DNA from: a virus
Virus record (IMG/VR): IMGVR_UViG_3300013119_000685
Location: 1-37,669 of that record
Direction: 5' to 3' (one strand)
DNA length: 37,669 nucleotides
The notes under the pieces were generated by a model, which worked only from the letters and a program-made list of their open reading frames with translations, was not told the DNA's origin and searched no databases. The position numbers and the translations under genes were made by a program. Positions 2,096 to 30,362 of the stretch are shown here, piece after piece (the first letter of the stretch is position 1; every line of letters starts with the position of its first letter).

Positions 2096-2304
2096 ATTTT
2101 CCATCTATTCTTTGCAAATCCTGTTACCAAATAACATATCAAAACACCAATTATTAAAAATGGACATAACATCAATGATATAAGAATACTAAATCCCCTA
2201 TTTTCTCTTTGATCATCATTTGGTTGTATCGCAGAATAATGTGCAAATAAAATCCCATAACAAACCCAAAAACAGATAACGCAAAGAATTGAATATGTTA
2301 TCAT
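2092..2304 (-). CDS. Small two-helix membrane protein
   Basis: A 70-residue protein with two hydrophobic helices: residues about 3-24 (YSILCVICFWVCYGILFAHY) and about 39-62 (ILISLMLCPFLIIGVLICYL), with a polar loop containing NDDQRENR. It overlaps both neighbours by ATGA (start 2304 with the radical SAM stop; stop 2092 with the GT2 start), so it is clearly part of the glycan operon. It is too small for a GtrA-type flippase, which has four helices, but its place between sugar enzymes suggests an accessory membrane role. No family recognised. Confidence 0.7.
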   Translation of the reverse strand: MITYSILCVICFWVCYGILFAHYSAIQPNDDQRENRGFSILISLMLCPFLIIGVLICYLVTGFAKNRWKI

Positions 2305-3695
2305 CCCTTCACCACCTTTCCTAAATCATGAAAGTTTCCGAACCTGTCATAGACCTTTTGACCTATGCGAATATAATATTTCAAATCCTCAAAGCTCTTT
2401 ATTCCCGCAATTTTTCGTGCGATAAACTCTGGATGGAACGCAGCATTGTAAATCCCTTTTTGAAGCGCAAACAATCTCTTTTCATAATAAGGAAGCTTCA
2501 TTACCGGCTTTGACATATCGTAATCTGTCCAATCTTCTGTGGCAAGCTTGCCCTGCTCTTTACACTCCTGCCAAAGCGGCGTTCCGGGATATGGTATGCA
2601 GATTGTCGCCTGCGCGCTTGAGGCCCACCCTTTTTTGAGCAACCACCGCACCATATTGTAAGTCCTTTTTGCATCCTCGCAGCTTTCCCAATGGTATCCG
2701 AACATAACCGTCAAATGGCTTTCAAGCCCTGCGGCCCGCGCCAATATCAAGTCCTGCATTACCGCCTTTTTGTCATAGCCCTTATTCAGCTTGTCAAGCG
2801 TTCTCTGATTAGCGCTTTCAAATCCCCAGAGCAACATCCTGAAACCGGCCTGCTTGAGTAGTGCAAAATCTTTTTCACCTAAAGCGCCAAATCTCATATT
2901 ACAGCTAAAGGCAACATGGTCGTTGTAACCCCTGTCGATAACCTCTTGGCAAAAAGTTCGCAGCCATTCCCCTGTCGGAAAAGTGCCGCTATCATCAAAG
3001 ATTTCCTTGAAGCCCATGCAAATCAACCCTTCAATTTCCGTTAAGACATCCTGCACATCCCTGATATGATAATTTTTATGATAGGTGGCCCAAGAGCAAA
3101 ACTTGCACTTGCGATACCAACAATCCATCGCTGACATGATATAAGTTCCGGGCAGGTATCTGAAGTTTCCATTCTTATAAGCATAAAGCCATGAGTTCGT
3201 AATCTGCCTGTTGATATGAGGTAATGGCGTTTTCTTATCCCATTCTGCGCCAGTTATAATCTTAAATACCTCATAATGCCAATCGCCGCCCTGAACAATA
3301 AAATCTGCATTGCATTCCTTTTTGCTTTCCTCTGGAAGCGCGGTTACATGCTGCCCGCATAAAATAACTTTGATATGCGGAAGGAATTGCTTTATGCCAT
3401 TAATCACTTCCCAGTATCTTTTAATTAAAGGCGTAGGCGCTTCAAATATTAAATACTGCGGCATCATCTGAACTATGGCCCGACCAAACTCTACTTCATT
3501 TAATTCGGAAGCCACCGCATCAAGCCATAATACCTGCGCTTTGCCGGAGTTCGCAAGCATGGTAGCTGATAAGGCCGGCACAATAGGGTAGGCAAAGAAT
3601 GGATCGGTAAACCATTGGAACTGCCTATTCTGCCCTATGGTTGCATAGCCCTTTGCATTTTTCATGGGTGGAACTACATAGATAACTTTTTGCAT
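2301..3695 (-). CDS. B12-binding-domain radical SAM protein
   Basis: 464 residues. The N-terminal ~150 form a B12-binding-like domain (VLWLDAVASELNE, then CGQHVTALPEE at about 113-123). A radical SAM TIM barrel follows, with a cysteine cluster at C192, C197 and C200, that is CX4CX2C (DCWYRKCKFC) rather than the usual CX3CX2C. FGYHWESCEDAKRT and the ATICIPYPGTPLW stretch are typical later barrel elements. Family members use 5'-deoxyadenosyl radical chemistry, often methylating or rearranging lipids, peptides or antibiotics. As the first enzyme of the cargo cluster it probably modifies a glycan or lipid. The start overlaps the upstream stop (TAATG) with AGGAG upstream. The substrate is not predictable. 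Confidence 0.88.
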   Translation of the reverse strand: MQKVIYVVPPMKNAKGYATIGQNRQFQWFTDPFFAYPIVPALSATMLANSGKAQVLWLDAVASELNEVEFGRAIVQMMPQYLIFEAPTPLIKRYWEVINGIKQFLPHIKVILCGQHVTALPEESKKECNADFIVQGGDWHYEVFKIITGAEWDKKTPLPHINRQITNSWLYAYKNGNFRYLPGTYIMSAMDCWYRKCKFCSWATYHKNYHIRDVQDVLTEIEGLICMGFKEIFDDSGTFPTGEWLRTFCQEVIDRGYNDHVAFSCNMRFGALGEKDFALLKQAGFRMLLWGFESANQRTLDKLNKGYDKKAVMQDLILARAAGLESHLTVMFGYHWESCEDAKRTYNMVRWLLKKGWASSAQATICIPYPGTPLWQECKEQGKLATEDWTDYDMSKPVMKLPYYEKRLFALQKGIYNAAFHPEFIARKIAGIKSFEDLKYYIRIGQKVYDRFGNFHDLGKVVKG

Positions 3696-3977: not shown

Positions 3978-4232
3978 TCATATCCCCTCATATACGGTGG
4001 TTTCATCCCTCATCTGTCCTCTTTTCCCCAAAAATATTAAAAAGTCCTTAACTAATCTTTTTTTATCATTAGTCAAATCTTTATAGGCCTCGGCAATCAT
4101 AGTAGTTTCGTGGCGTTTTTTAAAAACTTTATTTCTAAATAAAACCAAATCTAAAGCTATCCATAAATCAGTAGGCATTTTATCAAATTCCCAATTCTCT
4201 TTTATTATTCTTATGGCCTCTTGATATTGCAT
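3978..4232 (-). CDS. Hypothetical protein, 84 aa
   Basis: Not recognised. It has a very strong ribosome-binding site (AAGGAGGAGGAGAA directly before ATG 4232). The sequence is soluble and helical, with a basic centre (RNKVFKKRH) and TNDKKRLVKDFLIFLGKRG near the end. It overlaps the longer but unlikely start of the next gene; with ATG 3964 there is a short gap of 13 bases. The local DNA is markedly AT-rich compared with the structural genes. Confidence 0.62.
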   Translation of the reverse strand: MQYQEAIRIIKENWEFDKMPTDLWIALDLVLFRNKVFKKRHETTMIAEAYKDLTNDKKRLVKDFLIFLGKRGQMRDETTVYEGI

Positions 4233-4257
4233 TTCTCCTCCTCCTTAGCTGGCTGAA

Positions 4258-5055
4258 TTATAAGGGGGGTGACAATTTATCCCCACCCTTTGCTATATTA
4301 TTGAGTCTTTTAACCGCTATATCGCAGTATTCTTGGCTTATCTCAATTCCAATAAAATTACGATTTAATACTTTCGCCATTTTTAAAGTTGTGCCACTAC
4401 CACACATTGGGTCTAAAACTAAATCTCCTTTATTGCTCCAAGATAATATATGGTCTTGGGCGAGTTTTTCGGGAAAAGTGGCGGGATGATTTGTTTTCTC
4501 ATTTCCAGCACCAACGACATATTCAAAAATATTCCCTTTTATTTTTTCATTTTTATAAACCAATTTCTCATCTCTATTATGTCTTATACTGTGGTTATCA
4601 TAATTACAAGGTCTTTTGGGGTTATGAGTTTTCCCCGCCAATTTCGTTGGCATCTTTATCGGATTAAAAGTTTTTGGCTTGTCTTTTGATAAAATAAACA
4701 TATACTCAAACTCTTGCTCATATCTATTGTGCGTCAAAGGAATATAATTTACCTTTCTATATATCATCGTATCATGCAAATTAAATCCTATCTCCTTAAA
4801 ATAAAGTGCTTGTTTAAAAGATGTTCCCGTTTCGCTTCCGTTAATTGTCGCATCACCTACTACCCAAACCACCACTCCGCCTTTCTTCATCACTCGGTAT
4901 AATTCTCTGGTTATCGGCTCAAAGTTGAAAGTATATCCTTTGTAATCTCGTAAATTGTCATATGGCGGGGAAGTAACTACTAAGTCCACGTAATCACTTG
5001 GTAGTGTTTTAAGCACCTGTTCGCAATCACCTTGTATTACTTTATTAAGCATCAT
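4258..5055 (-). CDS. DNA methyltransferase, beta class (TSPPY; probably N4-cytosine)
   Basis: 265 residues. The catalytic motif IV TSPPY is at residues 28-32 and the SAM-binding motif I DPMCGSGTT is near residue 217, in the IV-before-I order of beta-class amino-methyltransferases. TSPPY is the form usual for N4-cytosine enzymes, though some N6-adenine enzymes share it. The target recognition region is the intervening ~150 residues. No restriction endonuclease is nearby, so a role in protecting phage DNA from host restriction is likely. The start is an ATGATG pair, 5055 or 5052, overlapping the upstream gene by 11 bases. Confidence 0.88.
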   Translation of the reverse strand: MMLNKVIQGDCEQVLKTLPSDYVDLVVTSPPYDNLRDYKGYTFNFEPITRELYRVMKKGGVVVWVVGDATINGSETGTSFKQALYFKEIGFNLHDTMIYRKVNYIPLTHNRYEQEFEYMFILSKDKPKTFNPIKMPTKLAGKTHNPKRPCNYDNHSIRHNRDEKLVYKNEKIKGNIFEYVVGAGNEKTNHPATFPEKLAQDHILSWSNKGDLVLDPMCGSGTTLKMAKVLNRNFIGIEISQEYCDIAVKRLNNIAKGGDKLSPPL

Positions 5056-5317: not shown

Positions 5318-5661
5318 TTCTTTAGCTCCTTTATTTCTGCCTTAAGACGAGCTATTATTGGTAAATATATCTTATCTACCCTATCATCTAAAATAACTGC
5401 CAACCTTTTAAATGGCTCTACTTGCTCAAAAGGTATCAGTTCATTTACAGATAATCTCGTTACTTCTGATATACAAACATCTTGAGGCATCTCCTCTTTC
5501 GCCTCTATCAAAATATCTAATGCTTTGAGGGCTATTTTGAGGGCTTGACTTCTCTCTGCTTCTACTCCACAAGGCTGACAATTTCTTCTACTGGATTGAT
5601 ATAAATTCTCATAATGTTTTTGTATTTTTTCTATTATCTCTCTCGTTTCCTCATAATTCAT
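5314..5661 (-). CDS. Hypothetical helical protein, 115 aa
   Basis: Not recognised. It is predicted to be mostly alpha-helical, with a CQPCG pair at about residues 29-33 and a lysine-rich C-terminal helix (ARLKAEIKELKK). It starts at ATG 5661 behind TAAGGAG, a translation start region that is duplicated exactly at 6350-6369. The start lies inside the end of the MT-A70 gene (11-base overlap) and its stop overlaps the next start by ATGA. Confidence 0.6.
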   Translation of the reverse strand: MNYEETREIIEKIQKHYENLYQSSRRNCQPCGVEAERSQALKIALKALDILIEAKEEMPQDVCISEVTRLSVNELIPFEQVEPFKRLAVILDDRVDKIYLPIIARLKAEIKELKK

Positions 5662-6205
5662 TTGGGTTGCTCCTTAGTTCTATATCACTTTCTACTTCAT
5701 TACCCCACACATCCCAACCCTCTGTTTTTTCTCTTGCAAAGAGTTCTATCCGAGGTAAATCGCCTAAGAGTTCTATAATTTTACTTTTCACAATATCAGG
5801 CTTTTGAGAGTGTCCTCTAATAGGAGAAAAAACTAATTGGAAAACACTCTTTGATATTCTTTTTGGTTTCCCTTTGGCTGCGATTAAGCAAGGTTCAGTA
5901 TTCCCCCTTGTCCAACGACCAAGACCATAAAAAGGTTTTAAGTTTTTCTTGTTCAATTTAACCCATTGGAAAGCGATGCTTTTATATTTAAATCCCCAAT
6001 GTTTAATAACCTCTAATGCTTCAGGGTATAGTGGATATGTCGCCCACAAAAACAAAACACAATCATTGTCAGATATTGCATCTATTGACAAAGAACTAAT
6101 ATCTTTCAAGCTCATTGTCTTGTAGTGAGCAGCGCAAGCACCATTACAGTTTTTGTCTCGGTATCTCCATGGTGGATCTGCATAAATAATCTGATATTTC
6201 TTCAT
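5651..6205 (-). CDS. MT-A70 family N6-adenine methyltransferase
   Basis: 184 residues from ATG 6205. The catalytic DPPW motif is at residues 10-13 (MKKYQIIYADPPWRY), typical of MT-A70/IME4-type N6-adenine methyltransferases found in phages and bacteria. WATYPLYPEALEVIKHWGFKY and WTRGNTEPCLIAAKGKP are conserved family segments, and SQKPDIV near the C-terminus resembles the HSxKP motif. The longer open frame back to 6286 overlaps a separate 46-codon gene whose TGA overlaps ATG 6205 (ATGA), so I use the short start. It is probably a solitary methyltransferase that marks phage DNA against host nucleases. Confidence 0.9.
   Translation of the reverse strand: MKKYQIIYADPPWRYRDKNCNGACAAHYKTMSLKDISSLSIDAISDNDCVLFLWATYPLYPEALEVIKHWGFKYKSIAFQWVKLNKKNLKPFYGLGRWTRGNTEPCLIAAKGKPKRISKSVFQLVFSPIRGHSQKPDIVKSKIIELLGDLPRIELFAREKTEGWDVWGNEVESDIELRSNPNEL
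5657..5676 (-). repeat. 20-bp duplicated translation start region, copy A
   Basis: Minus-strand TAAGGAGCAACCCAAATGAA is identical to 6350-6369. Here it provides the ribosome-binding site and ATG of the 115-residue gene, and also encodes part of the C-terminus of the MT-A70 gene in another frame. Confidence 0.85.
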
Positions 6206-6342
6206 TTCATCCCCATAACAGCTATGCTTATACCAATAGCTGATAACCAATACAAAGCCTTGAAATAGTTTCTCTCTACAAGACAAGCTATCATAACTAC
6301 AAAATAGTTAAGCATTAGCCATTTAATTAAATTATTACTCAT
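6202..6342 (-). CDS. Small membrane protein, 46 aa
   Basis: Starts at ATG 6342 (MSNNLIKWLMLNYFVVMIAC) and ends with TGA overlapping the MT-A70 start. It has two hydrophobic stretches (LMLNYFVVMIACLV; ALYWLSAIGISIAVMGM) separated by ERNYFK, giving a helical hairpin in the membrane. GTGAGGG lies just before the start. The overlap with its neighbour supports translation. Function unknown; small hydrophobic hairpins in phages can be holin-, superinfection- or envelope-related, which I cannot separate. Confidence 0.6.
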   Translation of the reverse strand: MSNNLIKWLMLNYFVVMIACLVERNYFKALYWLSAIGISIAVMGMK

Positions 6343-7347: not shown

Positions 7348-7509
7348 TTAAAACTCCTTCAATCTGCATAATCCAAATAAACACCAACAGCGCTTGCACA
7401 TAGCATAATTCATTTTTATATGGAATGCGAACGGCGTAGGCCGTAGCCGCCTTTTCATATCACAATAATTGCATTTACCTTTATGATATTTAGATTTCTT
7501 CTTTTCCAT
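7348..7509 (-). CDS. Small zinc-ribbon-like protein, 53 aa
   Basis: ATG 7509 lies inside the end of the glycosyltransferase gene and follows GAGAGGGG. The 53 residues are lysine-rich at the start, then carry CNYC (C13, C16) and CKRCWC (C38, C41, C43) plus C48, a CxxC-x21-CxxC spacing like a zinc ribbon. Its TAA overlaps another ATG (7348) that has its own AAGGAG site and reads 12 codons into the tRNA-like element before stopping. Probably a nucleic-acid-binding or adaptor protein; no family assigned. Confidence 0.6.
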   Translation of the reverse strand: MEKKKSKYHKGKCNYCDMKRRLRPTPFAFHIKMNYAMCKRCWCLFGLCRLKEF

Positions 7510-8203
7510 ACACCCCTCTCTTTTTATTATACCAAACTTTCAATGTATCAATAAATGTTTGCGTTATAGTTTTTACACTAACGCTGCCCGGCCCTGATTG
7601 TTTGTAAATGTTCACCGGCGCATCCGCGATCCGAAACATCCGTTCCTTGCAGGCCACTATCAATTCCAGATCAAGCGCAAAACCTTTTATCTTTAAGCAA
7701 TCAATCACTTCATTTAAAACTCGTTTCCTGAATAACTTCAACCCGCATTGAGTATCCCGAAGCTCAATCCCGAATAGCTTGCGACACATGAAATTATAGC
7801 CATCGCTTATGAAGCGCCTATGCAAAGGATATGTCAGGTTGCTATATGGGTGTCGCTTGCTTCCAACCACCCCATCAGCATTATATAATTCCATTATCCT
7901 TAAGAAAACTTGTAATTCATGCAGCGCTACTTGCAAGTCGGCATCCATTATGGCCACATATTCGTATATTGTTTTTCTGATACCCTTCAAAATGGCGCTG
8001 CCTTTTCCTCTGTTTGGATAGTGAGTTAATACCATATCTGCAACTTTCCTTGCCTTGTGGAATGTTCCATCTGTCGATCCATCATTAACAACTATAATCT
8101 CATTCCTGATTTCCATCGCCTTAAGCTGCTCTTTTATCCGCAACACATTGTCCTTAATGGTATTACATTCATTGTAAGCGGGTATTACAACGCTTAAATC
8201 CAT
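7490..8203 (-). CDS. DPM1/GtrB-like GT2: polyprenyl-phosphate sugar synthase
   Basis: 237 residues with the full signature of dolichol/undecaprenyl-phosphate glycosyltransferases: MDLSVVIPAYNE at the N-terminus, IIVVNDGSTDGT, NRGKGSAILKGI, the metal-binding MDADLQ, and DTQCGLKLFRKRV. Family members transfer mannose, glucose or a related sugar from a nucleotide donor to a polyprenyl phosphate on the cytoplasmic face. The product would be the natural donor for the GT-C enzyme encoded at 31369-32826. It lacks the two C-terminal membrane helices of many GtrB proteins, so it is probably peripheral. The start overlaps the replication gene stop (TAATG), so it is made with early replication proteins rather than from the main cargo cluster. 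Confidence 0.88.
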   Translation of the reverse strand: MDLSVVIPAYNECNTIKDNVLRIKEQLKAMEIRNEIIVVNDGSTDGTFHKARKVADMVLTHYPNRGKGSAILKGIRKTIYEYVAIMDADLQVALHELQVFLRIMELYNADGVVGSKRHPYSNLTYPLHRRFISDGYNFMCRKLFGIELRDTQCGLKLFRKRVLNEVIDCLKIKGFALDLELIVACKERMFRIADAPVNIYKQSGPGSVSVKTITQTFIDTLKVWYNKKRGVYGKEEI

Positions 8204-8940
8204 TATTTTACATCCCCTATGCCTGCAAGTAGGCCCTTCAGCTTCTCAGATACCCCAATTTGAGCCAAATCCTGTGCCTGTTGAATGTTTTTATCCCGGT
8301 TGAAGTCCTTGTATGCCTGATCGCAGGACTTGACAAAATAGCCCCATTTGTTGCTGATTTCGCCTTTTGAATTGCTGTGCAGGTAGGTTTCGCATACCTT
8401 TACAATCACTTCTTCCGGTAAATAGGCCTTTAGCTTCTTTTTAAGCTTGTTGTTAAACTTGTATATGGCGAAGCCAGTCTTTTCAACTTGCTTCATTAAA
8501 GCAGCGGTTTTTTCGCTAATATTTACTTTACTTTCCTTTACTTTACTTTCCTTTACTTGTGGGAGAGTAACTCTCGACCTACCCTGGAGTAACTCTGGAG
8601 TTACTCTTGATATAAGCGGTTTTCCTTCCTTCTCTGGATACAATCTCGGCTGCTTTTCTGTAAAATCAGGCACATAAAGGAATATATCGCCATCATGATT
8701 AAAGCGTTGTATCAATTTGTTTTCTTCCAAATCTTGCAAATATCCTTCAATAGTATCATCGCCCTTGTTTAGCCGGGTAACCACTTTTCCGTTAACTACC
8801 TTTGGATCGCCGGAGAAACAACCGTTAATATCTAAATGAGGAATTAGCCAAGTATAGAGCAATCTTGCGCCGTCAGTTTTAAGCATAGCAAGCTTCTTGC
8901 TTTCCGATATGGACTTCAATATTATTCTACCCTGTGGCAC
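8203..8940 (-). CDS. Phage replication initiator (winged-helix replisome organiser)
   Basis: About 245 residues from GTG 8940, which has AAAGGA upstream; ATG 8973 is the alternative. The N-terminal segment (RLLYTWLIPHLDINGCFSGD, then IEGYLQDLEENKLIQRF and YVPDFTEKQPR) matches phage replisome-organiser proteins with a winged-helix DNA-binding domain. A charged linker with repeated KESKV leads to a C-terminal helical region (LPEEVIVKVCETYL; WGYFVKSC) like helicase-loading domains. The linker is encoded by iterons that recur beside DnaA boxes at 30588-30689, so the gene probably contains, or resembles, the origin it recognises. No helicase or polymerase is encoded, so host replication machinery is presumably recruited. 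Confidence 0.78.
   Translation of the reverse strand: MPQGRIILKSISESKKLAMLKTDGARLLYTWLIPHLDINGCFSGDPKVVNGKVVTRLNKGDDTIEGYLQDLEENKLIQRFNHDGDIFLYVPDFTEKQPRLYPEKEGKPLISRVTPELLQGRSRVTLPQVKESKVKESKVNISEKTAALMKQVEKTGFAIYKFNNKLKKKLKAYLPEEVIVKVCETYLHSNSKGEISNKWGYFVKSCDQAYKDFNRDKNIQQAQDLAQIGVSEKLKGLLAGIGDVK
8522..8606. other. Iteron cluster inside the replication gene (candidate origin)
   Basis: The plus strand has seven five-base units (TTTAC or TTTCC) at 8522-8556, then TTGTGGGAGAGTAA, then a perfect inverted repeat GAGTAACTC-TG-GAGTTACTC at 8587-8606. Nineteen bases (8552-8570) are identical to 30613-30631, and GAGTAACTC words recur at the same spacing there. Origins embedded in initiator genes are known in lambda and related phages. 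Confidence 0.6.
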
Positions 8941-11857: not shown

Positions 11858-11886
11858 ATTATACCATAGTGGTTTATGGTTGTCAA
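11858..11886 (-). promoter_or_regulatory. Consensus sigma-70 promoter with operator in the spacer
   Basis: Minus strand: TTGACA (11886-11881), a 17-base spacer, TATAAT (11863-11858). All twelve hexamer bases match the consensus. The spacer holds ACCATA-N6-TATGGT (11880-11863), a perfect inverted repeat that would be occluded by RNA polymerase, as expected for a repressor operator. It lies just after the last late gene and drives the ribbon-helix-helix gene and the unit downstream. Confidence 0.88.
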
Positions 11887-17268: not shown

Positions 17269-19220
17269 TATCCTATAGTCCTTGCTCGGTTAAGTTCTCG
17301 TTCAACTCTTGCTCCAAGCTCCTCTGCCAATAAAGATATATCAATGCCGCTTGCTATATTGGCGTTCATGTTAATTGTAATATTATTTGATGCAACTGTA
17401 TTCGCTTTATTTAAGGGAATAACAGCTTCCGGCCCTCTTTCCCCTACCATTGCAAGCGTTGGTCTTGTAACAATACCACCCTCTGCAAGCATGGCCAAGC
17501 TTTTTGATAAAGCGGTAACGGAAGTAAGCGCACCTGCTGCCGGCGCTGCGTTTGCACCAAAGCTAGCCAATGAAGCCAAAGCCGCAGCCGGCGCATAAGC
17601 TTGAGCCATTGCTGCGCCTGTAACGGTAGCCGCCGCTGTCGCTGCACCTTGAAATACCTTTGACATAGCCATATTGATTGCTTTTTGCGCAAGGAAATCA
17701 ACAAGCGTTTGCACCATTTGCCAACCCAGATCCTTAAAAGCTTCTTTAATATCCGCTGTTCCCTTTAACATATCAACAAATGTTTTTGATATTCCGGAAG
17801 CGAACTGGTCTTTCATCTTACCTACCGCAACCCACATACTTTGGTTTGCCCTTTGTTGTGTTTGCATGGCCAGCTTAACAGCTTCAGTTTCCCGTTGTAT
17901 CGAAGCTAAACCATGAGCCAATCTTTCATCTTGATATGAACGCCAATTTGAGCGCAAGGTTTCTAATGTAGTAAGCTCTTTGTCAAGTTTGTCTGCAATA
18001 ACAACTTCTGTGCTTGCGGTAGCAATTTCTTTTTCTTCTTCAAATCTATCTTTTATTTCTGCCTTCATGCCGTCAAGCATTTCTTTGAACTTCTCAAAGC
18101 GTTCGGCAAATACAGCGGAATAATCTTCGTTTGCTTGTTGTTCCCTCTGAACAATTTCCGCAGAAGTAACTTCAATTTCTTTTTGCAAGAGCTTTACATT
18201 CTCTATCCGCTTTTTGACTTCCGCATCCGAGCCAAGCAGCCACTCAACTCCTACTGCGAACTGCTGCTGCTTTTCCGAAAATAACAATAATAAAAGATAT
18301 GCCTTTTGTATCGTGTCGCTAAAACTTCCCCAAACATCAATTGCATGCCCTGTGCCGACAACTAAAACTCCAACAAGGTTGCGGGCCTGTTCGTAAGCCC
18401 CTTCAAGCGCATTGCCTATACTGTCAACTACTTCTTTATACTTGCCGCCATCTTCTTTGCTTTTATTGATAAGCTCAAGGACTGCGCCCATATCAATCTT
18501 AACTTTGTCAAATACGGCAGCGCCTATATCCCGCCGGAAGATAAACCAAGCGTCTTGCATCATGGAAACCATGCCTGTAAAGGTCTTGGCAAGCTCTTTA
18601 GAAGCGCCAACATACTTGCCTGTGCCATCTTCCCATTGCTTGGTAATAACTTCCATTGTTTCCTGCGCAGTTTTGGAAACTCCGGCCTTGAAGCCCAAAG
18701 CAGCAAGAACGCCCCTTTCCCTGAACATATCAGCAGCAGCAGCACCGGCAGAATACATCCTTATCATCTGACTTGTAACTTCCCGGACGGCAATTCCTGT
18801 TCCTGCGGATATATCAATAATAATAGGCATCAACTTGTTTATCTCGGAAGTTCCGCCTTTAACAACGGCCGCAAGATCGGTTGCCGCAGTCATTATTTCG
18901 TCATAAGTCTTTGGCACTTTTCCGGCAAGCTCGGTCATATCCTCAAAAACCTTATTGCCTTCTTGAACGCTGCCAAGCAACACCTTTAACCTAACACCTA
19001 AATCCTCGACTTTGCTTTGAACAGAAATAATATCTTTAGAAAACTTATGCATGGCAAAGCCAGCACCTAAAATCAAAGCTGTATTGCGCAACCAATGCTT
19101 CTGCCAATCAGCAGCAAAGCCCTTGACAACTCCGCCAAGCCCTTTGTAGGCCTTCTTCATTTGCATTGTTGCTTTGTCATTCAGCATCAATAAGACTTCA
19201 AGCTTTGGTTTTCCTGCCAT
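17268..19220 (-). CDS. Tape measure protein, 650 aa
   Basis: It has a long helical N-terminal region (SKDIISVQSKVEDLGVRLKV; FEDMTELAGKVPKTYDEIMT), characteristic of siphovirus tape measure proteins with a TP901-type core, then an extended coiled coil (VKKRIENVKLLQKEIEVTSA; FEKFKEMLDGMKAEIKDRFE). An Ala-rich membrane-active segment follows (AAATVTGAAMAQAYAPAAAL and neighbours). The C-terminal segment VGERGPEAVIPLNKA is a hallmark of many tape measures. By the usual rule of about 0.15 nm per residue, the tail would be near 95-100 nm. AAAGGAAAAAAC precedes ATG 19220, which overlaps the GT frame by 23 bases. Confidence 0.9.
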   Translation of the reverse strand: MAGKPKLEVLLMLNDKATMQMKKAYKGLGGVVKGFAADWQKHWLRNTALILGAGFAMHKFSKDIISVQSKVEDLGVRLKVLLGSVQEGNKVFEDMTELAGKVPKTYDEIMTAATDLAAVVKGGTSEINKLMPIIIDISAGTGIAVREVTSQMIRMYSAGAAAADMFRERGVLAALGFKAGVSKTAQETMEVITKQWEDGTGKYVGASKELAKTFTGMVSMMQDAWFIFRRDIGAAVFDKVKIDMGAVLELINKSKEDGGKYKEVVDSIGNALEGAYEQARNLVGVLVVGTGHAIDVWGSFSDTIQKAYLLLLLFSEKQQQFAVGVEWLLGSDAEVKKRIENVKLLQKEIEVTSAEIVQREQQANEDYSAVFAERFEKFKEMLDGMKAEIKDRFEEEKEIATASTEVVIADKLDKELTTLETLRSNWRSYQDERLAHGLASIQRETEAVKLAMQTQQRANQSMWVAVGKMKDQFASGISKTFVDMLKGTADIKEAFKDLGWQMVQTLVDFLAQKAINMAMSKVFQGAATAAATVTGAAMAQAYAPAAALASLASFGANAAPAAGALTSVTALSKSLAMLAEGGIVTRPTLAMVGERGPEAVIPLNKANTVASNNITINMNANIASGIDISLLAEELGARVERELNRARTIG

Positions 19221-19539
19221 GTTTTTTCCTTTGTCTTTGCTTCGCTTTTTCTTGTTGCATAGTATTAAATTCGTTGCTTATTACCATCATCGCGCTTAAA
19301 TATTTATCGCTTTCATTTAGCCATCCCGAGCCGTTTGGCAATATGTCTTTTTGATATAAACCAAACGCCCGAATATACTGCCAACTCAACTCATCAATTA
19401 ACTTTAAAGGGCATCGGAAAAATTGCTTATCCTCGATATAAAAGGGTATCAACCCATTGCATTCGCAACCTCTTTCGCGCTTGAGCTTGGCATCGCACTC
19501 TTGGCAGTTAAGGCCAAAATCTAAAACCCTAACCGCCAA
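19198..19539 (-). CDS. Tail assembly chaperone, T frame (made by -1 frameshift)
   Basis: An open frame with no ATG and no ribosome-binding site at its start; the first usable codon is TTG 19539, two bases after the G-frame stop. It is in the -1 frame of the gene before it, which ends A AAA AAC TAA. A -1 slip there reads straight into this frame (L-T-L-A-V-R-V-L-D), giving a 222-residue G-T fusion as in lambda gpG/gpGT. The segment has cysteines in CQECDAKL and CECNG plus FRCPLK, a probable zinc site, and a basic tail (RQRKKHGRKTKA). It lies directly before the tape measure, as expected. Confidence 0.78.
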   Translation of the reverse strand: MAVRVLDFGLNCQECDAKLKRERGCECNGLIPFYIEDKQFFRCPLKLIDELSWQYIRAFGLYQKDILPNGSGWLNESDKYLSAMMVISNEFNTMQQEKAKQRQRKKHGRKTKA

Positions 19540-19541
19540 TG

Positions 19542-19865
19542 TTAGTTTTTTGCTTCATCATCCGATAGTTTATTGACATGCAATAATTCTGTTCCAAGCT
19601 CCACGATAGCGTTGAGAGGTATTCTGTCCATTATGTCGGGAAGCACTCCATTTTCGTCAGCTTCAAACTCAACATCAAAATTCTTCCACCCTTTAAGGCC
19701 TAACCTTACAAGCTTAAACATCTGCTCTTGCATGTTCTTGGCGTCAGCACCTATCGAAGCAAGTTCGCTGCTCTTTAAGCATCCAAGCTTCCATACTGTC
19801 GGATTATCCTTGTCCAAATTTAAAACATAATCAACAGTAGCGTTAAGATTGATACCCGATATCAT
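19542..19865 (-). CDS. Tail assembly chaperone, G frame
   Basis: 107 residues between the major tail protein and tape measure genes. Mostly helical (ELASIGADAKNMQEQMFKLV; IPLNAIVELGTELLHVNKLS), with an N-terminal strand segment (LNATVDYVLNLDKDNPTVWKLG). It ends DDEAKN, whose last two codons with the base before them form A AAA AAC, then TAA. In siphoviruses this position encodes a chaperone that coats the tape measure during tail assembly and is made both alone and as a frameshifted fusion. Confidence 0.82.
   Translation of the reverse strand: MISGINLNATVDYVLNLDKDNPTVWKLGCLKSSELASIGADAKNMQEQMFKLVRLGLKGWKNFDVEFEADENGVLPDIMDRIPLNAIVELGTELLHVNKLSDDEAKN
19545..19551 (-). promoter_or_regulatory. 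Programmed -1 frameshift site (A AAA AAC)
   Basis: Minus strand AAAAAAC at 19551-19545, phased as A_AAA_AAC in the G frame and followed immediately by TAA 19544-19542. The -1 frame is open for 115 codons beyond. It matches the X_XXY_YYZ rule and the conserved location of the tail chaperone frameshift in tailed phages. Confidence 0.85.
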
Positions 19866-19880
19866 ACACCCCCCTTGTTA

Positions 19881-20831
19881 TTAAGTGAATGTTATAGTGA
19901 TTTCATCATCTTGGCTATTCGTATCGCTTGAAATCAACGCAGCCGAACATTCAAAAGTCCTTATTCCATCTGCATCGCCATATTTATTAGTTTCGTATTG
20001 GAAATAGCCGTCAAACATTATCTCCTTGCCATGCGTTCCGCTGCCCGCCACAATAGCAAAGGTTGCGATAACATCGCCCGACCAATCTCCCCAAAACGGA
20101 TTTGAGCTTTCGACAACCGCATCAGCGTCAAACTCCATTACAGGCTTCCTGCCGGATATCCTGAAACTATCAACTCCGAAGGTAGCATTTAAGTCATCGC
20201 GCCTTACGACATTGTTGGCAAGGTCTATCTGACATCTTGAACATACAGGGCTAAACCCGCCTATCTGGAAATTCGAGTTATATATAATTGGCGGGTTAAT
20301 ATTGCTTGCCGCACTAATATCCGGTATCGTTGCCTCAATAACCGCATTGTAAAGGCCCTGAAATTCCCATTCGCAAATGCCATACTTCCCGGCTTCCATG
20401 ATAAAGCGGCCTGTTCCCCTTGCGCCTGTAATCTTATGCTTGTTGCCGTCAACATGTATATAAAGAGAAATTGTCTTTAAGTCGCTTTCCGCGCTTTTTA
20501 CACTATATACAATCGGCGCTGTTCCGGTGTAAGAAGCTGTCCCAAAACCGCAGCCAATAAGCAAATCGTGCATTTCGGGGTTATTCTGCCCCGCTGTTCC
20601 TGACGCAACGCCACCCGACTTAATTTCTGTCTTAAAAGCGCATGAGATTTCCTTCATACCTACAACATGCGCTATCGGAGAAAGCGTATCCCTTAAAATA
20701 TCCCTTGTTAAAACCTCGCCTTTGACATCCAAGTCAACATCCCAAGCAAGCATTGGCGTAAACCCGCTTGCCGGATCTGTCCCCGCAGTAGTTTCCGTTG
20801 CAACCTCAACAACTGTTCTTCTGGTTAACAT
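19881..20831 (-). CDS. Major tail tube protein, 316 aa
   Basis: It begins MLTRRTVVEVATETTAGTDP, typical of siphovirus tail tube proteins, with repeated beta strands (ISCAFKTEIKSGG; YIHVDGNKHKITGARGTGRF; YGICEWEFQGLYNAVIEATI) and a second domain with GKEIMFDGYFQYETNKYGD. Position before the chaperone pair and after the tail completion gene supports the call. A CSRC pair in VCSRCQID is unusual and could be structural. RBS-like GGGG precedes the next gene. Confidence 0.78.
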   Translation of the reverse strand: MLTRRTVVEVATETTAGTDPASGFTPMLAWDVDLDVKGEVLTRDILRDTLSPIAHVVGMKEISCAFKTEIKSGGVASGTAGQNNPEMHDLLIGCGFGTASYTGTAPIVYSVKSAESDLKTISLYIHVDGNKHKITGARGTGRFIMEAGKYGICEWEFQGLYNAVIEATIPDISAASNINPPIIYNSNFQIGGFSPVCSRCQIDLANNVVRRDDLNATFGVDSFRISGRKPVMEFDADAVVESSNPFWGDWSGDVIATFAIVAGSGTHGKEIMFDGYFQYETNKYGDADGIRTFECSAALISSDTNSQDDEITITFT

Positions 20832-20848
20832 TCTCTATTCCCCCTTTT

Positions 20849-21301
20849 TTATACTCCATCTGTTTGCCTATACAAAATCCGCATAGGTATTCTTAAAGCT
20901 CTTGCCATAAATCTCTTTATCTCAAAATCCTGAAACTCTGTCGGCTCAAATCTTACATCAATTACATTGTCCGCTAAGGTATAAGAGCTTTGCAAGCACG
21001 CCCGGATATCATTTTCAATATCCAAAACTCCCTGATACCCTGCGCCGCCGACAATAGCATAATCAGGATTGTCTGACGATTTGGTAATCGCCGTAACATC
21101 TACATCGAGCCATATCTTTTTTATCTGATTGGCATCAAGTTCTATTTCATTATTACCTGTAACCTCGCACATAATACAAGGCATGCTGTCCGGCTCTATG
21201 TTATACCTGTTGCCCTTGTAAACATATTTTACATAACCGCTTAAAGTGCCGTTGCCCTGCAATGTCGTTACCAATTGATTAAATACTGTTGCTGCAACCA
21301 T
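20849..21301 (-). CDS. Tail terminator-like protein, 150 aa
   Basis: It begins MVAATVFNQLVTTLQGNGTL and ends with strands FEIKRFMARALRIPMRILYR. The length, the alpha/beta layout with DVDVTAITKSSDNPD, and its place between HK97 gp10-like and tail tube genes fit the tail terminator/completion family that caps the tube and joins it to the head. It lies one base after the gp10-like gene. The family is inferred from order and shape rather than a motif. Confidence 0.62.
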   Translation of the reverse strand: MVAATVFNQLVTTLQGNGTLSGYVKYVYKGNRYNIEPDSMPCIMCEVTGNNEIELDANQIKKIWLDVDVTAITKSSDNPDYAIVGGAGYQGVLDIENDIRACLQSSYTLADNVIDVRFEPTEFQDFEIKRFMARALRIPMRILYRQTDGV

Positions 21302-21302
21302 A

Positions 21303-21704
21303 TCAACCTCTCTCTATTGCCTTTTGAATACTCTCAACAAAAACCTCTAAAACCATTTCCTTATTTTCCTTATCCTCAAGCGCCGGCCGCAAGAATGGCC
21401 TTGCCCTGTGCCTACCTAGGCCAAGTTCATGGGATTTGCCATATTCAACATTTGTTCCGAAGCGGCCTGTATATTTATTCCCGCTTTTCTCAACTCTGCC
21501 CGAAGATATGCTTGCCCGCAAATTGCCTGTTACAACTCCAAGATACTTTGGGCGCGGGCCTGTCAACCTGTGCTTCTTACTCCATCCGGCCATATAAGTC
21601 GTTGCTAACTTCAAGCTACGCTTAATAACCCTGTCCTGCGTAGCGGAAGTCATCTTGGAAAGTATCTTCTCAAGCCCCTTTACTTTAAGCAATATAGAAG
21701 CCAT
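21303..21704 (-). CDS. HK97 gp10-like head-tail joining protein
   Basis: 133 residues. The middle and end match the HK97-gp10 family: VVTGNLRASISSGRV, then KYTGRFGTNVEYGKSHELG and RARPFLRPALEDKENK. Members sit at the neck and help join head and tail. It overlaps the connector gene upstream by 20 bases and precedes the terminator-like gene, the order found in HK97-type phages. Confidence 0.85.
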   Translation of the reverse strand: MASILLKVKGLEKILSKMTSATQDRVIKRSLKLATTYMAGWSKKHRLTGPRPKYLGVVTGNLRASISSGRVEKSGNKYTGRFGTNVEYGKSHELGLGRHRARPFLRPALEDKENKEMVLEVFVESIQKAIERG

Positions 21705-22326
21705 ATTCAGCGCTTACATCCATTTTTTTATAGCTATTGATTGTCTTATGCCACATGCTGTTATTGTTCAGCATTTGAACAAATTTCATACCGCCATCCT
21801 CGCCGTCAACAGTATGCACCGCAGTTATCCCCTCCCTGAACGATTGAGCAACCATTTCTACGATAACCTGCTTTAAATCATTCGGAACCGCAAAGCCAAT
21901 TGTGCCAAGCCCATCATGGGAATTATGCGTTCCGGCAGCGTATCCGGCGTAATACTCAACATAAACATTCCGCTTGTTCTTTGAAAGCACTCCGCCTTGA
22001 CTGACAATCTGCCCTCTTGCCTCATAAAGGATTATGTCATCAGTCGCTATCTGCGTTGCGCTCCCAAAATCCCTATCAGCGTCAACATTAACTTCGTTGA
22101 CATACCATACCGGAAATTGAGGCAAGAGCATAACATATTGCCCTGTGCCGTCAAAATAGCAGTTCGCAGGATCGGTTTTGTAAAGCTTTGCTTCGAATTT
22201 CCTGCTGCAAGTCGTTTCAACGAACTCCTGAACGGCGTTACTTAAATCCTTCAGCTTGTCATTCGGCCCTGTGTCCGCGCTTGCGAGGCCGAGCCAACTT
22301 CTTATCGCACTTGTGCTTACTAACAT
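21685..22326 (-). CDS. Head-tail connector (gp6/DNA-packaging adaptor-like), 213 aa
   Basis: It begins MLVSTSAIRSWLGLASADTG, with LKDLSNAVQEFVETTCSRKFE, the classic start of gp6-type connectors: a helical bundle in which residues bound the portal ring. A beta region follows (YFDGTGQYVMLLPQFPVWYV) and then a C-terminal helix (NDLKQVIVEMVAQSFREGIT). It likely forms the ring between portal and tail. AAGGTG precedes ATG 22326. The 99-base gap upstream holds a GC-rich hairpin. Confidence 0.78.
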   Translation of the reverse strand: MLVSTSAIRSWLGLASADTGPNDKLKDLSNAVQEFVETTCSRKFEAKLYKTDPANCYFDGTGQYVMLLPQFPVWYVNEVNVDADRDFGSATQIATDDIILYEARGQIVSQGGVLSKNKRNVYVEYYAGYAAGTHNSHDGLGTIGFAVPNDLKQVIVEMVAQSFREGITAVHTVDGEDGGMKFVQMLNNNSMWHKTINSYKKMDVSAEYGFYIA

Positions 22327-22402
22327 TTTTGCACCTTGTATGTTTGTGGGTTATTTGACGATTAACATAAGATAATTGTTTACTCATAATAGTATAATTC
22401 CG

Positions 22403-22420
22403 GGCGGGAGTTACCCCGCC
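22403..22420. terminator. GC-rich hairpin between putative decoration and connector genes
   Basis: GGCGGG (22403-22408) pairs with CCCGCC (22415-22420). It lies just after the stop of the gene at 22426. On the minus strand the stem is followed by CGGAATTATAC, without a U run, so it may act as an RNA-stability or pausing element rather than a full terminator. A T-rich run follows it only on the plus strand, where no genes exist. The rest of 22327-22425 shows nothing else I can support. Confidence 0.45.
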
Positions 22421-22425
22421 TTTGT

Positions 22426-22950
22426 TTAGATTATCGCTTGTGAATATTCAGCATTGGTTGTCGTAATGGTAGTAGGGTGCGTAATATACAGGGTATCTCT
22501 CGGACGCCCTAAAATTACACCGACAGAATATGCAAACTCAATACCCGCTGTTCCCACCATTGTTACAATAGGCCTAACATAACGCTTCCTGTTGCTATCG
22601 TTCAACCTCTCATAGCATACAGTCGAATACAAAACAGGATTGGTCGGGGCCATGCCTGTTCCGCAGCTAACCTTAAAGCTTCCCATTATCATCCCATCAG
22701 TAATGTCCGTCATGCTGCCACCGGTATCTGCTGCCGCATCGCCTTCTTGGAAACGCAGTTCAAGTTTCCCTGTTGAAGCCGTTCCTGCCGCGCCGCCTGT
22801 TCCGCCCACTACCGAGTAAGTCAATATTGCCATAATATCAGCAAATGGGCTTACATCAATGGCATCACCACAAGCCGTTGCGCTAGCTGCCGCACCAATT
22901 GTTCCAACTAAAAGCGGCCTATAATCAGTAATATCTGGCCATTGTCGCAT
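22426..22950 (-). CDS. Putative capsid decoration or head structural protein, 174 aa
   Basis: It begins MRQWPDITDYRPLLVGTIGA and is rich in Gly, Ala, Thr and beta strand (KLELRFQEGDAAADTGGSMT; GSFKVSCG; RYVRPIVTMVGTAGIEFAYS). A gene of this kind right after the major capsid gene often encodes a decoration or minor head protein. It is bracketed by two GC-rich hairpins, suggesting its message is processed or its dosage tuned separately. The function is inferred from place and composition. Confidence 0.6.
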   Translation of the reverse strand: MRQWPDITDYRPLLVGTIGAAASATACGDAIDVSPFADIMAILTYSVVGGTGGAAGTASTGKLELRFQEGDAAADTGGSMTDITDGMIMGSFKVSCGTGMAPTNPVLYSTVCYERLNDSNRKRYVRPIVTMVGTAGIEFAYSVGVILGRPRDTLYITHPTTITTTNAEYSQAII

Positions 22951-22987
22951 TTGTTGTTCCTTACTCCTGACGCTTAATTTAAGAGAA

Positions 22988-23015
22988 GGGCGGCCCGGTC
23001 AGGGATACGCCGCCC
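22988..23015 (-). terminator. Strong GC hairpin after the major capsid gene
   Basis: GGGCGGC (22988-22994) pairs with GCCGCCC (23009-23015), seven G-C-rich pairs with a 14-base loop. On the minus strand it follows the capsid stop by about 30 bases and is trailed by TTCTCTTAAATT, a broken U tract. A leaky terminator or 3' stability hairpin for capsid mRNA is plausible. Confidence 0.55.
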
Positions 23016-23045
23016 AACCCTCACCTTAATAAGCTACCACGCAAA

Positions 23046-24275
23046 TTAAGATTTTATTACACAGAAGGCAGAAGGCAAAGCAACGCCCATACAAACTCTT
23101 TCAATAAATCTTAAAGCAAGCATGTCCTTCTCAAACAAGTTATCGCTTAAAACAGTTCCTTCCCGGCCGATAGTCATTTCAACAGTTCCTCTTTCACCGA
23201 ATAGAAGGCCCTTCTTTAAATCTCCGAACAACGCATAGGTCGTTGCATCGGTTTGGTATGCAGCATGTCCTATGCCCGGAAGTATCTCGGTTGAAACAAT
23301 TGGATATCCTGCCACCGAGTTCGCCGTTGCCGGCATGATTGGCGCGCCTGCGGTTGTAATCAAGCTTCTGATGTGCGCAATCATAGTTCTGTGGAAGTAG
23401 TATTTTGCATTTGGCAAACTTTGCGCATAGGTGAAACCGGGTATCCTAACCAAATCAGGATAGCTTAAACACTCAAACCCTGTTCCGCCTGCATGCGGCG
23501 CTGTTGGAACGCCGGTCGCGTTAATTGCACCGGTGAATGGGCTTCCAACTCCGACCAAGCCCTGCGTATCCTCGCCTTTGGCAAATTGCTCTGCCGCAAG
23601 CTCGGCGATATAACCTACTACATCAACATTTGCGTCCGCAAGCAATTCAGGAGTTACCTTCGGGATACATGCAAGCTTGTTGATGGTTAAAGTAACCTGA
23701 CGGAAGTTTGGATCGGTTGTGTATATCTGCGAAGCTTCATTTGTCCAATGCGCCGTCAAATCAGTAGTTCCCGCTGCCGGAACATTCAATACATCGGTTC
23801 GCATAGGTATATGCCTTGCATCACGCCTTACTACGCCATAAGTCGGCGCTAACCTTAAAATCTCTGCGGCAAATTCCTCTGGAACAAGGAAGCCACCGGC
23901 CGTTGTCGTTCCTTCTGAAAGATTGGCCTTAATCCTTACTTCTTCGGACATCTTTTTTGCTGTCTGAACATCACCAACTACCATTGCTTTTAGAAACTGC
24001 AAGGTCTTGACAAACTTACCTTCGGGAGTATTCGGAAGGTTTGTATCAGCGCCGGGTAACGCAAAATGCTTCTTGTCAACTTGCGTCAAGGGCTTAATCG
24101 CCGCTTTAACTGTGCTGTCGATTATCCCCTTGAGGTCGTCCATCGAAAGCTGCTTCAAATCACGCTTGTCAGCATCCTTGTTATCCTTAACTTCCTTCTT
24201 AATATCTTCCATCTTCTTCAAAAGTGCTTCTTGCTGCTCTTTTGGCAGTTTTTCAAATTCTTCTCTTGTTAACAT
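23046..24275 (-). CDS. Major capsid protein, HK97 fold
   Basis: 409 residues. Residues about 1-110 are a highly charged helical region (EEFEKLPKEQQEALLKKMED; DADKRDLKQLSMDDLKGIID), the delta/scaffold domain that the prohead protease removes. The mature shell protein starts near LSEGTTTAGGFLVPEEFAAE, the best-known HK97-family signature. NVPAAGTTDLTAHWTNEASQ, QVTLTINKLACIPKVTPELL and the C-terminal TIGREGTVLSDNLFEKDMLA are typical later segments. It lies after the protease gene, in standard order. Confidence 0.92.
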   Translation of the reverse strand: MLTREEFEKLPKEQQEALLKKMEDIKKEVKDNKDADKRDLKQLSMDDLKGIIDSTVKAAIKPLTQVDKKHFALPGADTNLPNTPEGKFVKTLQFLKAMVVGDVQTAKKMSEEVRIKANLSEGTTTAGGFLVPEEFAAEILRLAPTYGVVRRDARHIPMRTDVLNVPAAGTTDLTAHWTNEASQIYTTDPNFRQVTLTINKLACIPKVTPELLADANVDVVGYIAELAAEQFAKGEDTQGLVGVGSPFTGAINATGVPTAPHAGGTGFECLSYPDLVRIPGFTYAQSLPNAKYYFHRTMIAHIRSLITTAGAPIMPATANSVAGYPIVSTEILPGIGHAAYQTDATTYALFGDLKKGLLFGERGTVEMTIGREGTVLSDNLFEKDMLALRFIERVCMGVALPSAFCVIKS

Positions 24276-24302
24276 TAGTTTCTCCTTTGTTTTTAATATT
24301 GT

Positions 24303-25115
24303 TCAGCTTACCTTGCCCGTAACTTCTCTGATAACTCCGGCAATTTGCTCATTTATTGTCTTTATGAGTTCATCTCCTGTCATCTCCGATAAAGTCTTTG
24401 GCTTGGCTTCCGGAACAATGCTTTGTGAATACAGTTTCCATTTTAACTCGTTAATTTGTTTCCCGAGAGCTTCTATCTGTTCAAGTAATTTTGAATTTTG
24501 CTCTTTAGTTTCCGTTAAATCAGCCCGGAGCGCTTCCTGTTCGCTTGTATCCGGCGGCTCTCCATCCGGCTTTTCATCGTCATCATCACCAAGTTTCTTA
24601 ATGGCTTCCTCTTGAGTTTCAAAGATTTCCTTAAGCTTCTTGTCCTTCACAACGCCCTTGCTCAATGCCAAAGCTAAAGCGTCCGGGTTTGCCGGCACAG
24701 GAACGGCGGAATATTCTATCAGTTCCCAATCCGTATATGTAGTGCTTGGCTCTTTGTCGCCTTCGCCGTCAACCCACTTCTTCGGGATAAAACCCACACT
24801 AAAGGCGTTCATAAAGCCACCCTTGTATAAATCAAACACTTCCTGCGCAAATTGGCTTGTAGCAAACTGCACCTTGCTCAATATACCTTCGGCCGTTTTC
24901 TTTATCCATAGGGCCTTACCAATAGGCGGCTCGCTGTATCTATGACCAAATAGCACAACCGGGTTTTTCTTGAACTTGCTCAAATCAGCACCCTTCGGCT
25001 CTAAAACCTCGTTCATCCGGTCGCGGGTATTAGTGCTTACAAGCGCTGTTAGAGTTCGTTCCTTCTCGTCTATGCTTTTTACTGCACTATCTATAACACT
25101 ATATCTTTTGTCCAT
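24303..25115 (-). CDS. Prohead protease (U35/HK97 gp4-like) with acidic C-terminal extension
   Basis: 270 residues. The N-terminal ~150 form a U35-type serine protease: VLFGHRYSEPPIGKA carries catalytic His58 and MNAFSVGFIPKKW carries Ser106; YSAVPVPANPDALALA is the conserved end of the domain. Residues about 170-270 are acidic and coiled (DDDDEKPDGEPPDTSEQE; LRADLTETKEQNSKLLEQIE) and probably act as internal scaffold before self-cleavage. It cleaves the capsid delta domain inside the prohead. The following capsid gene starts 27 bases downstream. Confidence 0.88.
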   Translation of the reverse strand: MDKRYSVIDSAVKSIDEKERTLTALVSTNTRDRMNEVLEPKGADLSKFKKNPVVLFGHRYSEPPIGKALWIKKTAEGILSKVQFATSQFAQEVFDLYKGGFMNAFSVGFIPKKWVDGEGDKEPSTTYTDWELIEYSAVPVPANPDALALALSKGVVKDKKLKEIFETQEEAIKKLGDDDDEKPDGEPPDTSEQEALRADLTETKEQNSKLLEQIEALGKQINELKWKLYSQSIVPEAKPKTLSEMTGDELIKTINEQIAGVIREVTGKVS

Positions 25116-25121
25116 TTTAAA

Positions 25122-27173: not shown

Positions 27174-27174
27174 T

Positions 27175-28927: not shown

Positions 28928-29073
28928 TATGTAAAAAACATCATTGCTAAACCAATTATGCCGCGCACTATTCTAATACTGTGGCACTTTACCCAACTCT
29001 CACTTGGATATGAGAATACGCTATAAATGCAATCAGCCAACAACCATACACCACACATCTTTATCCAAACCAT
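28927..29073 (-). CDS. Small membrane protein, 48 aa
   Basis: ATG 29073 overlaps the TAA of the ParB-methyltransferase gene, and its own TAA overlaps ATG 28927 of the terminase: TAATG at both ends, with GGAG upstream. The product begins MVWIKMCGVWLLADCIYSVF and ends IIGLAMMFFT, giving two short hydrophobic segments around a polar loop (SYPSESWVKCHSIRIVRG). It fills exactly the gap between two well-supported genes. Function unknown. Confidence 0.65.
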   Translation of the reverse strand: MVWIKMCGVWLLADCIYSVFSYPSESWVKCHSIRIVRGIIGLAMMFFT

Positions 29074-30269: not shown

Positions 30270-30362
30270 CGCCAGCCACCTTTCAAAAAAAATAGAGAGC
30301 GCGCACTTCATCTGTGCGTCAACTCTCTTTGAGTTCTTTACTTCGTTTGTTTGTTCCGGGCC

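Follow-up and report, generated by a model that had tools for sequence, protein, structure and literature searches.

Classical phage Gtr systems, the known cases of which occur in temperate phages, consist of three components, namely the flippase GtrA, the polyprenyl-phosphate-glucose synthase GtrB and a serotype-specific GT-C glycosyltransferase. Three-component systems built around a GT-C enzyme have been described alongside the Gtr systems, with one phage example in the available portion of the account (PMC11127046), and pentofuranose systems of the GT136 type, composed of a lipid-phosphate-sugar synthase, a flippase and a GT-C, include one Caudoviricetes example in the accessible text of Kelly et al. 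(2024). A bacterial counterpart of such surface chemistry is found in Pseudomonas aeruginosa, where the glycosylation of pilins by TfpO and TfpW gives protection against phages that bind pili (PMC11841053). The stretch of DNA analysed here, of 37,669 nt and hereafter called the window, is the virus record IMGVR_UViG_3300013119_000685, in which the original prediction had recognized a split Gtr-like pair, consisting of a DPM1/GtrB-type GT2 in the replication region and a TMTC-like GT-C in the cargo. What was computed in this work comprises the families and folds of the proteins, the intactness of the operon, the finding that two phage lineages conserve it, and the kinship of its GT-C to enzymes of Omnitrophota. 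The two genes first noted are real components of a larger whole, best read as a phage-borne surface-glycan operon.

The window represents a complete circle of 37,550 bp. Its first 119 bp (1-119) recur identically at 37551-37669 as a direct terminal repeat, indicating a circular or terminally redundant genome. Collapsing the repeat yields a radical-SAM frame of 443 aa that crosses the junction from 425 to 36644, and the junction is bridged by a second contig that is 99.96% identical to the window over 18.2 kb. With repeat, read-through frame and spanning contig in agreement, the circular junction is real, so that what had been described as a replication region and a distant cargo adjoin on one circle.

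Both genes lie on the minus strand, at 7490-8203 and 31369-32826. The former encodes a protein of 237 aa in which the motifs quoted earlier (NRGKGSAILKGI, MDADLQ and DTQCGLKLF) are found, which matches the Pfam GT2 family (E=1e-28) and the PHROG 'GtrB-like' family (E=1e-27), and whose best solved relative is the Pyrococcus DPM synthase 5mlz (phmmer, E=1e-13); a simple hydropathy scan yielded no membrane segment. In the available passages of Gandini et al. (2017; PMC5526996), the residues named for DPM synthase are D89, D91, Q93, R117, R131 and S135. The DxDxQ donor and metal motif is present, with D87, D89 and Q91 of the GT2 corresponding to D89, D91 and Q93 of PfDPMS, and two acceptor-phosphate counterparts are kept (R129 for Arg131 and S133 for Ser135), while K116 replaces Arg117, a lysine that is also found at this position in 43/43 cellular and 11/13 phage rows. 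The same passages describe the counterparts of Arg131 and Ser135 as difficult to identify in GtrB. Because both are retained, the enzyme appears nearer to DPM synthase than to GtrB, and the earlier label stands as regards a polyprenyl-phosphate-type GT2 but not as regards GtrB. The gene at 7490-8203 is thus predicted to encode a GT2 of the dolichol-phosphate-mannose-synthase type.

That no GtrA flippase would be visible was borne out, as PF04138 was found in 0 of 11 phage records, with a control search positive in 8 of 14 genomes. Two small membrane proteins had been offered in its place. The protein at 31256-31372 (38 aa) has one hydrophobic stretch, as judged by eye. The 70-aa protein at 2092-2304, with two hydrophobic stretches in the hydropathy scan, is a poor candidate, since no counterpart exists at that place in three related phage genomes (G011, G016 and G018).

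The operon runs unbroken from a gene designated rSAM-B12 to the GT-C gene and comprises 11 genes over ~9.9 kb, or ~26% of the genome, all on the minus strand. Successive genes overlap by 4 to 136 bases (gaps of -4 to -136), with the one exception of GT4a and rSAM2, where the rSAM2 start at 425 abuts the GT4a end at 426. The first gene, rSAM-B12 (2301-3695), encodes a radical-SAM protein of 464 aa with a weak N-terminal B12-binding match; it is followed by the 70-aa protein, by a second GT2 with a C-terminal hydrophobic stretch that is conserved beside rSAM-B12 (GT2b, 1385-2104), and by the glycosyltransferase GT4a (426-1520), the true start of which is likely the ATG near 1403. The junction-crossing protein rSAM2 has its N-terminal part at 1-425, starting with the ATG at 425, and its C-terminal part at 36644-37669. 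Further along the operon lie a methyltransferase (36066-36668), a membrane protein of the CDP-alcohol phosphatidyltransferase family (35293-36069), a DegT-family protein of 206 aa (34683-35303), the glycosyltransferase GT4b (33679-34686), a nucleotide-sugar reductase/epimerase of the RmlD family (32819-33682) and, as the last gene, the GT-C glycosyltransferase. The CDP-alcohol phosphatidyltransferase scores 57.6 bits against PF01066 (cut-off 22) and contains, as DYVDGDLARRTGLSSKAGEWFDSIGD, the pattern D-x2-DG-x2-AR-x8-G-x3-D-x3-D, which we take to be the motif of this family. DegT-family proteins are usually about twice as long as the present one; the short form (~200 aa) recurs at 63-68% identity in two relatives, G018 (68%) and G019 (63%), the loci being window 34683-35303, L037:18974-19570 and L042:15622-16257.

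The GT2 at 7490-8203 lies outside this run, separated from rSAM-B12, in order of transcription, by small genes, an MT-A70 gene and an N6 methyltransferase, and from the GT-C gene by ~12.2 kb on the circle, in which every called gene is on the minus strand. A sigma-70-type promoter pattern with 12/12 consensus positions, a pattern match only, lies on the minus strand at 11858-11886, ahead of the early region containing the GT2. A pattern scan listed no terminator-like site on the minus strand from GT2 to rSAM-B12, and one such site, likewise a pattern match only, falls at 493-471 (minus) inside the end of GT4a. With uniformly oriented genes, a real junction and the promoter pattern upstream, it is plausible that GT2 and GT-C belong to one transcription unit, as originally proposed, although the layout takes that proposal no further than plausibility. 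The window additionally carries three DNA-methyltransferase-type genes (4258-5055, 5651-6286 and 29073-30311), one with a ParB-like N-terminal domain, and a 75-nt stretch in two copies (8479-8553 and 30545-30619), 75% identical, 22 kb apart and ending in TTTAC-type repeats.

The GT-C protein (485 aa) is composed of a glycosyltransferase part (residues 1-360), with SDDH at residues 27-30, and a TPR tail (364-458). Sequence profiles gave a weak PMT_2 match below the cut-off (E=0.0016) and a TPR_2 match above it. A structural model built on 4 sequences was of low quality (pLDDT 53.6) and was discarded; the model from 36 sequences is confident (pLDDT 87.3, pTM 0.88). Only GT-C enzymes figure among its 21 best structural matches, which include OST, ALG12, Pmt4, PglB, AglB and ArnT and fall within residues 1-381 (Z 14.5-16.7, rmsd 4.3-5.4, with 274-299 residues aligned); the tail matches the TPR structure 1na3 (Z 11.2 over 364-458). 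Foldseek alone gave nothing at E<=0.001, with TPR designs first and ArnT at E 0.028. The structure prediction thus confirmed the proposed GT-C fold with its TPR tail. Among viral structures in BFVD, the best match is the uncharacterised A0A514K300 of Nitrosopumilus spindle-shaped virus 1 (E 0.008, TM 0.53 over the target), which, judging from the models, may represent an archaeal-virus GT-C.

The further assignment to the TMTC family held in part. D28 and D29, the acidic pair of the first outer loop, are invariant in 36/36 aligned rows. Seven TMTC motifs are given in Table 4 of Eisenhaber et al. (2021; PMC7801869), as far as this source was available, and two of these are recognizable, M1 (DD) and M7 (ERxxY), the latter as QDRYVY in the window, with D for E, and as AERYxY in 4 of the 7 rows of a second phage family. 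At the corresponding positions of the window GT-C, M2 (SHKSYRP), M4 (KE(T/Q)xxT), M5 (DW) and M6 (PxxP) are absent, and M3 (RxD) is replaced by RxY (R132, Y134); DUF1736 (PF08409) is not among its Pfam matches at E<=0.01. The available text of the same source states that M4 (KE) and M5 (DW) are thought to bind metal and phosphate, and with both missing the enzyme may use other residues or another donor, or may be impaired. The neighbourhood and the TPR tail therefore agree with the earlier description, but family membership does not: the protein probably works like a TMTC/ArnT-type enzyme, yet is better not classified as a TMTC.

Single-sequence searches with the GT-C against viral contigs, phages, genome contigs and plasmids gave no match, and relatives were reached by way of the portal gene and the radical-SAM genes, and subsequently with profiles. 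The portal protein search led to 14 loci; across 17 records searched, GT-C relatives were found in two (52% and 48%) and GT2 in four, one of which is a near-copy of the window. Whole-record comparison placed the operon genes in the same order in G011 (40,480 bp), G016 (28,943 bp) and G018 (41,936 bp; complete, with a 127-bp terminal repeat), at protein identities of 33-68%. An alignment search with rSAM-B12 reached 18 viral loci, and the GT-C profile matched 13 of 18 records searched with it, the five others (G001, G002, G003, G019 and G020) being pieces of 6.5-22.8 kb. With identical gene tables at their loci, G023 and G029 were taken as duplicates of G021 and G028, respectively, and not counted separately. 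A second, podovirus-like family is made up of seven distinct loci, the tested members of which have a different terminase (phrog_2) and a podovirus-type connector (phrog_332); here rSAM-B12 and GT2 genes share one run with a divergent GT-C (profile match at E 8e-12 to 3e-21; 19-23% identity to that of the window), and rSAM-B12 lies immediately upstream of this GT-C or near it. The GT-Cs of the 12 distinct phage records carrying one, including the window, group together in the tree (94/90).

Several further features of these relatives were recorded. The large terminase of the window (27175-28584) has no BLAST match to the terminases of G011 (L030) and G018 (L038), a pair with 78% mutual identity, yet the portals of these two phages are 52-55% identical to the window portal, which indicates mosaic packaging genes. 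G011 also carries a protein with a zinc-ribbon end (37254-38333; L030:17254-18333), presumably a TnpB-type transposon nuclease. In the podovirus-like lineage, the operon of G030 contains split transketolase/DXP-synthase-like halves (L054:3162-3839 and 4117-4575) as well as radical-SAM genes, of which that at L054:740-1906 has a SPASM domain.

Whether GT2 and GT-C form a pair can be judged from these 12 records. A DPM-type GT2 is clear in six (the window, G016, G022, G026, G028 and G030), doubtful in two, where it is a long outlier in the tree (G021 and G024), and absent in four (G011, G018, G025 and G027), of which G018 is complete and G025 and G027 are fragments. In G016, the GT2 opens the operon that GT-C closes, in agreement with the proposed pair; as complete G018 has a GT-C and no DPM-type GT2, the pair is plausible but not obligatory and was too narrowly conceived, and the donor in that phage must come from another GT2 or from the host.

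The cellular surroundings of these genes lend some weight to a different account, in which GT2, rSAM-B12 and GT2b would constitute a unit for lipid-linked glycans that was acquired from cells, the link between GT2 and GT-C would be coincidental, and GT-C would use donors made by GT2b or the host. From 114 confirmed cellular loci around rSAM-B12 homologs, 80 were kept (L075-L154). In 42 of the 80, a DPM-type GT2 is encoded no more than 3 kb from rSAM-B12, in 18 of these 42 as a longer, fusion-type protein of at least 500 aa, and only one further GT2 match was present in the remaining 698 kb, so that the strongest tie of the GT2 is to the radical-SAM gene. No homolog of the GT-C, CDP-alcohol or PEP-mutase genes was found in these 80 loci at E<=1e-5, and the GT-C of G018 without a DPM-type GT2 also fits this account. 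However, GT2 and GT-C share one operon in the podovirus-like phages and in G016, and the phage GT-C profile found homologs elsewhere in 16/27 host-type genomes (E<=1e-5), so that distance does not exclude cooperation; two independent units are thus possible, though unlikely. The cellular unit itself comprises a DPM-type GT2, a second GT2 and a B12-type radical-SAM protein, encoded side by side or with the two GT2s joined in one protein (e.g., L123:7776-10957 and L102:8036-11455, the fusion-type protein of L102 holding two GT2 stretches by Pfam), and is spread over many uncultured bacterial and archaeal phyla. It looks like a pathway of its own, and we know of no pathway assigned to it.

A second alternative is a special case of the surface-glycan reading, namely that GT-C would add sugar to host type IV pilins and exclude pilus-binding phages in the manner of TfpW, with an additional TPR tail. 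The nearest cellular kin of the phage GT-C are the GT-Cs of Omnitrophota, where homologs occur in 29 of 285 genomes of the phylum (E<=1e-20), the best of them chromosomal (E 9e-59); a prophage around it was rejected because its neighbours, inspected by eye, resemble housekeeping genes. In the tree, the phage GT-Cs and the cellular rows designated 'YH' occupy one side of a branch, opposite 16 others (98/95). A type IV pilin-type gene lies within ~1.5 kb in 7 of 8 cellular YH rows and in 2 of the 16 other aligned rows, the rows of this comparison being related by descent; a further YH row, L178, has a contig ending beside the gene. Pilin-type ORFs occur within the same distance in 11 of 31 Omnitrophota GT-C loci; their density per kb is 0.226 in the GT-C flanks, compared with 0.032 in the rest of the same 20 loci and 0.0016 in the 80 radical-SAM loci. 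On the other side, a cruder sorting of all 31 loci by a regex motif gave 7/12 against 4/19 pilin-adjacent loci (p=0.056), with L186 and L200 mis-sorted according to the alignment and L203, outside the alignment, apparently mis-sorted as well; moreover, L175, the closest cellular GT-C, has no pilin neighbour, and no pilin-type gene was found in the phages. The pilin genes near YH-type GT-Cs make pilins a candidate acceptor, without raising them above a candidate, and pilin glycosylation as such remains a tentative proposition.

It has also to be considered that the operon makes a glycolipid bearing a phosphonate or phosphoalcohol, to which the CDP-alcohol transferase would add the head group, with GT-C providing secondary decoration. 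In G016, the position of DegT between the CDP-alcohol transferase and GT4b is taken by a PEP-mutase-family gene (PF13714, E 2e-43, over the cut-off), together with split phosphonopyruvate-decarboxylase-like halves, a phosphonate-type Fe-ADH and a cytidylyltransferase (L032:8999-11592), and in G011, PEP-mutase-family and Fe-ADH genes follow GT-C (L029:11146-13261). According to PMC6697681, the majority of phosphonate gene clusters probably have a role in tailoring the cell surface, and EDKxxxxxNS is the PEP-mutase motif. The motif is altered in both relatives, to EDNLPELKTNS in G016 and QDDMPHLKQNS in G011, their phosphonate-like genes score below the NCBIfam cut-offs, and none was seen in the window, where the short DegT stands instead, all of which makes this alternative doubtful. 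Surface phosphonates in marine bacteria have been proposed to reduce viral lysis (PMC8931226, in the part available), and the accessible part of PMC13188868 gives viral phosphonate-degradation genes, its pepM figure referring to community gene abundance and not to a viral gene. Among the matches listed in our literature search, no report of phage-borne phosphonate-type chemistry was found.

Chance host-derived cargo without function in the phage, suggested by the occurrence of the operon's gene families in cells, is very improbable, given open frames, the same order of genes in several phages despite identities of 33-68%, and phage GT-Cs that form a single group.

The surface-glycan operon therefore remains the preferred reading, and within it the original interpretation keeps its families, fold, TPR tail, lack of GtrA and layout, while the GtrB label, TMTC membership and the strict pair are given up and the 70-aa protein is disfavoured as a flippase. 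RmlD, DegT, the methyltransferase, the two cobalamin-type radical-SAM proteins, the GT2 and GT4 enzymes and the CDP-alcohol phosphotransferase would build an unusual sugar or phospho-substituent in the cytosol, probably in lipid-linked form; the DPM-synthase-type GT2 would charge polyprenyl phosphate with the sugar, a host flippase would turn the charged lipid outward, and GT-C would transfer the sugar to a host surface acceptor outside the cytoplasmic membrane, with its TPR tail helping to hold the acceptor. On the whole, it is fairly probable that the operon remodels host surface glycans, the sugar, flippase, acceptor and benefit being those that we infer from the gene content. Since related phages keep the same gene set, the phage probably alters the host surface during infection. 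The most likely use would be to mask or change receptors so that other phages and sister virions cannot adsorb, and the purpose is probably protection against superinfection.

The lifestyle of the phage bears on this benefit. Integrase and resolvase families gave nothing over the cut-off in 8/8 phage records, a negative that is limited by the possible incompleteness of all but those with end repeats (the window, G018 and G028); one integrase match in the window was rejected, being below the cut-off and situated within the tape-measure gene. Classic lysogenic conversion is therefore unlikely, and what a lytic phage would gain from a glycan module is less obvious. It is from the kinship of GT-C alone that we infer an Omnitrophota host. 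In a CRISPR search of window positions 18000-37669 against 384 Omnitrophota genomes, weak matches appeared in 9, and the 5 of these inspected were simple repeat or showed no clear array; in the GT2 tree, L007 and L008 group with an Omnitrophota row, and the window GT2 is placed elsewhere. The boldest version of the preferred reading, which we consider rather unlikely in its full extent, is that widespread integrase-less phages, with Omnitrophota-like bacteria as their probable hosts, coat type IV pili or other proteins of the host surface by means of a TPR-tailed GT-C and shut out competitors during their lytic cycle, drawing on a cobalamin/radical-SAM-based pathway of their own, with a phosphonate branch in some members.

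The significance of the locus lies in the fact that a 37.5-kb phage in which no integrase was found devotes about a quarter of its genome to a putative surface-chemistry operon, the order of which is kept across distant relatives and an altered form of which is common to another phage lineage. If the reading is true, it becomes possible to test what TMTC-like GT-Cs do in candidate-phylum bacteria, and the operon would offer a phage route to pilus masking as well as a pointer to phage-borne phosphonate-type chemistry.

Among the known systems, cellular Ppm/Pnt phosphonate surface tailoring resembles the relatives of the window in its PEP-mutase-family, Ppd-like, Fe-ADH and cytidylyltransferase genes, and differs from the window, where these were not seen, and from the relatives in the altered diagnostic motif. 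The pentofuranose systems, likened here from the available text of Kelly et al. (2024) and without a GT136 comparison, share the three-part logic but use another donor synthase and a MATE flippase, whereas no flippase was seen here. TfpW, the type IV pilin arabinosyltransferase of P. aeruginosa, is alike in the working idea only, a GT-C acting on pilins with protection from phages, with no sequence comparison behind the likeness, and is a bacterial gene, whereas the present one belongs to a phage. The TMTC1-4 O-mannosyltransferases and bacterial TMTC-like TPR GT-Cs have in common with the present enzyme the GT-C fold, the loop-1 DD, (D/E)RxxY and the TPR tail, but it departs from them in SHKSYRP, RxD, KE(T/Q)xxT, DW and PxxP and stands on the 'YH' side of the tree. 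The Gtr systems are alike in combining a polyprenyl-phosphate-type GT2 with a GT-C in one phage and in glycosylating outside the membrane, as is proposed here; in contrast to them, the present phage has neither a GtrA nor an integrase that could be found, its GT2 and GT-C are non-adjacent, the GT2 is of the DPM-synthase type, the GT-C is a TMTC-like enzyme with a TPR tail, and the two are accompanied by many further biosynthetic genes.
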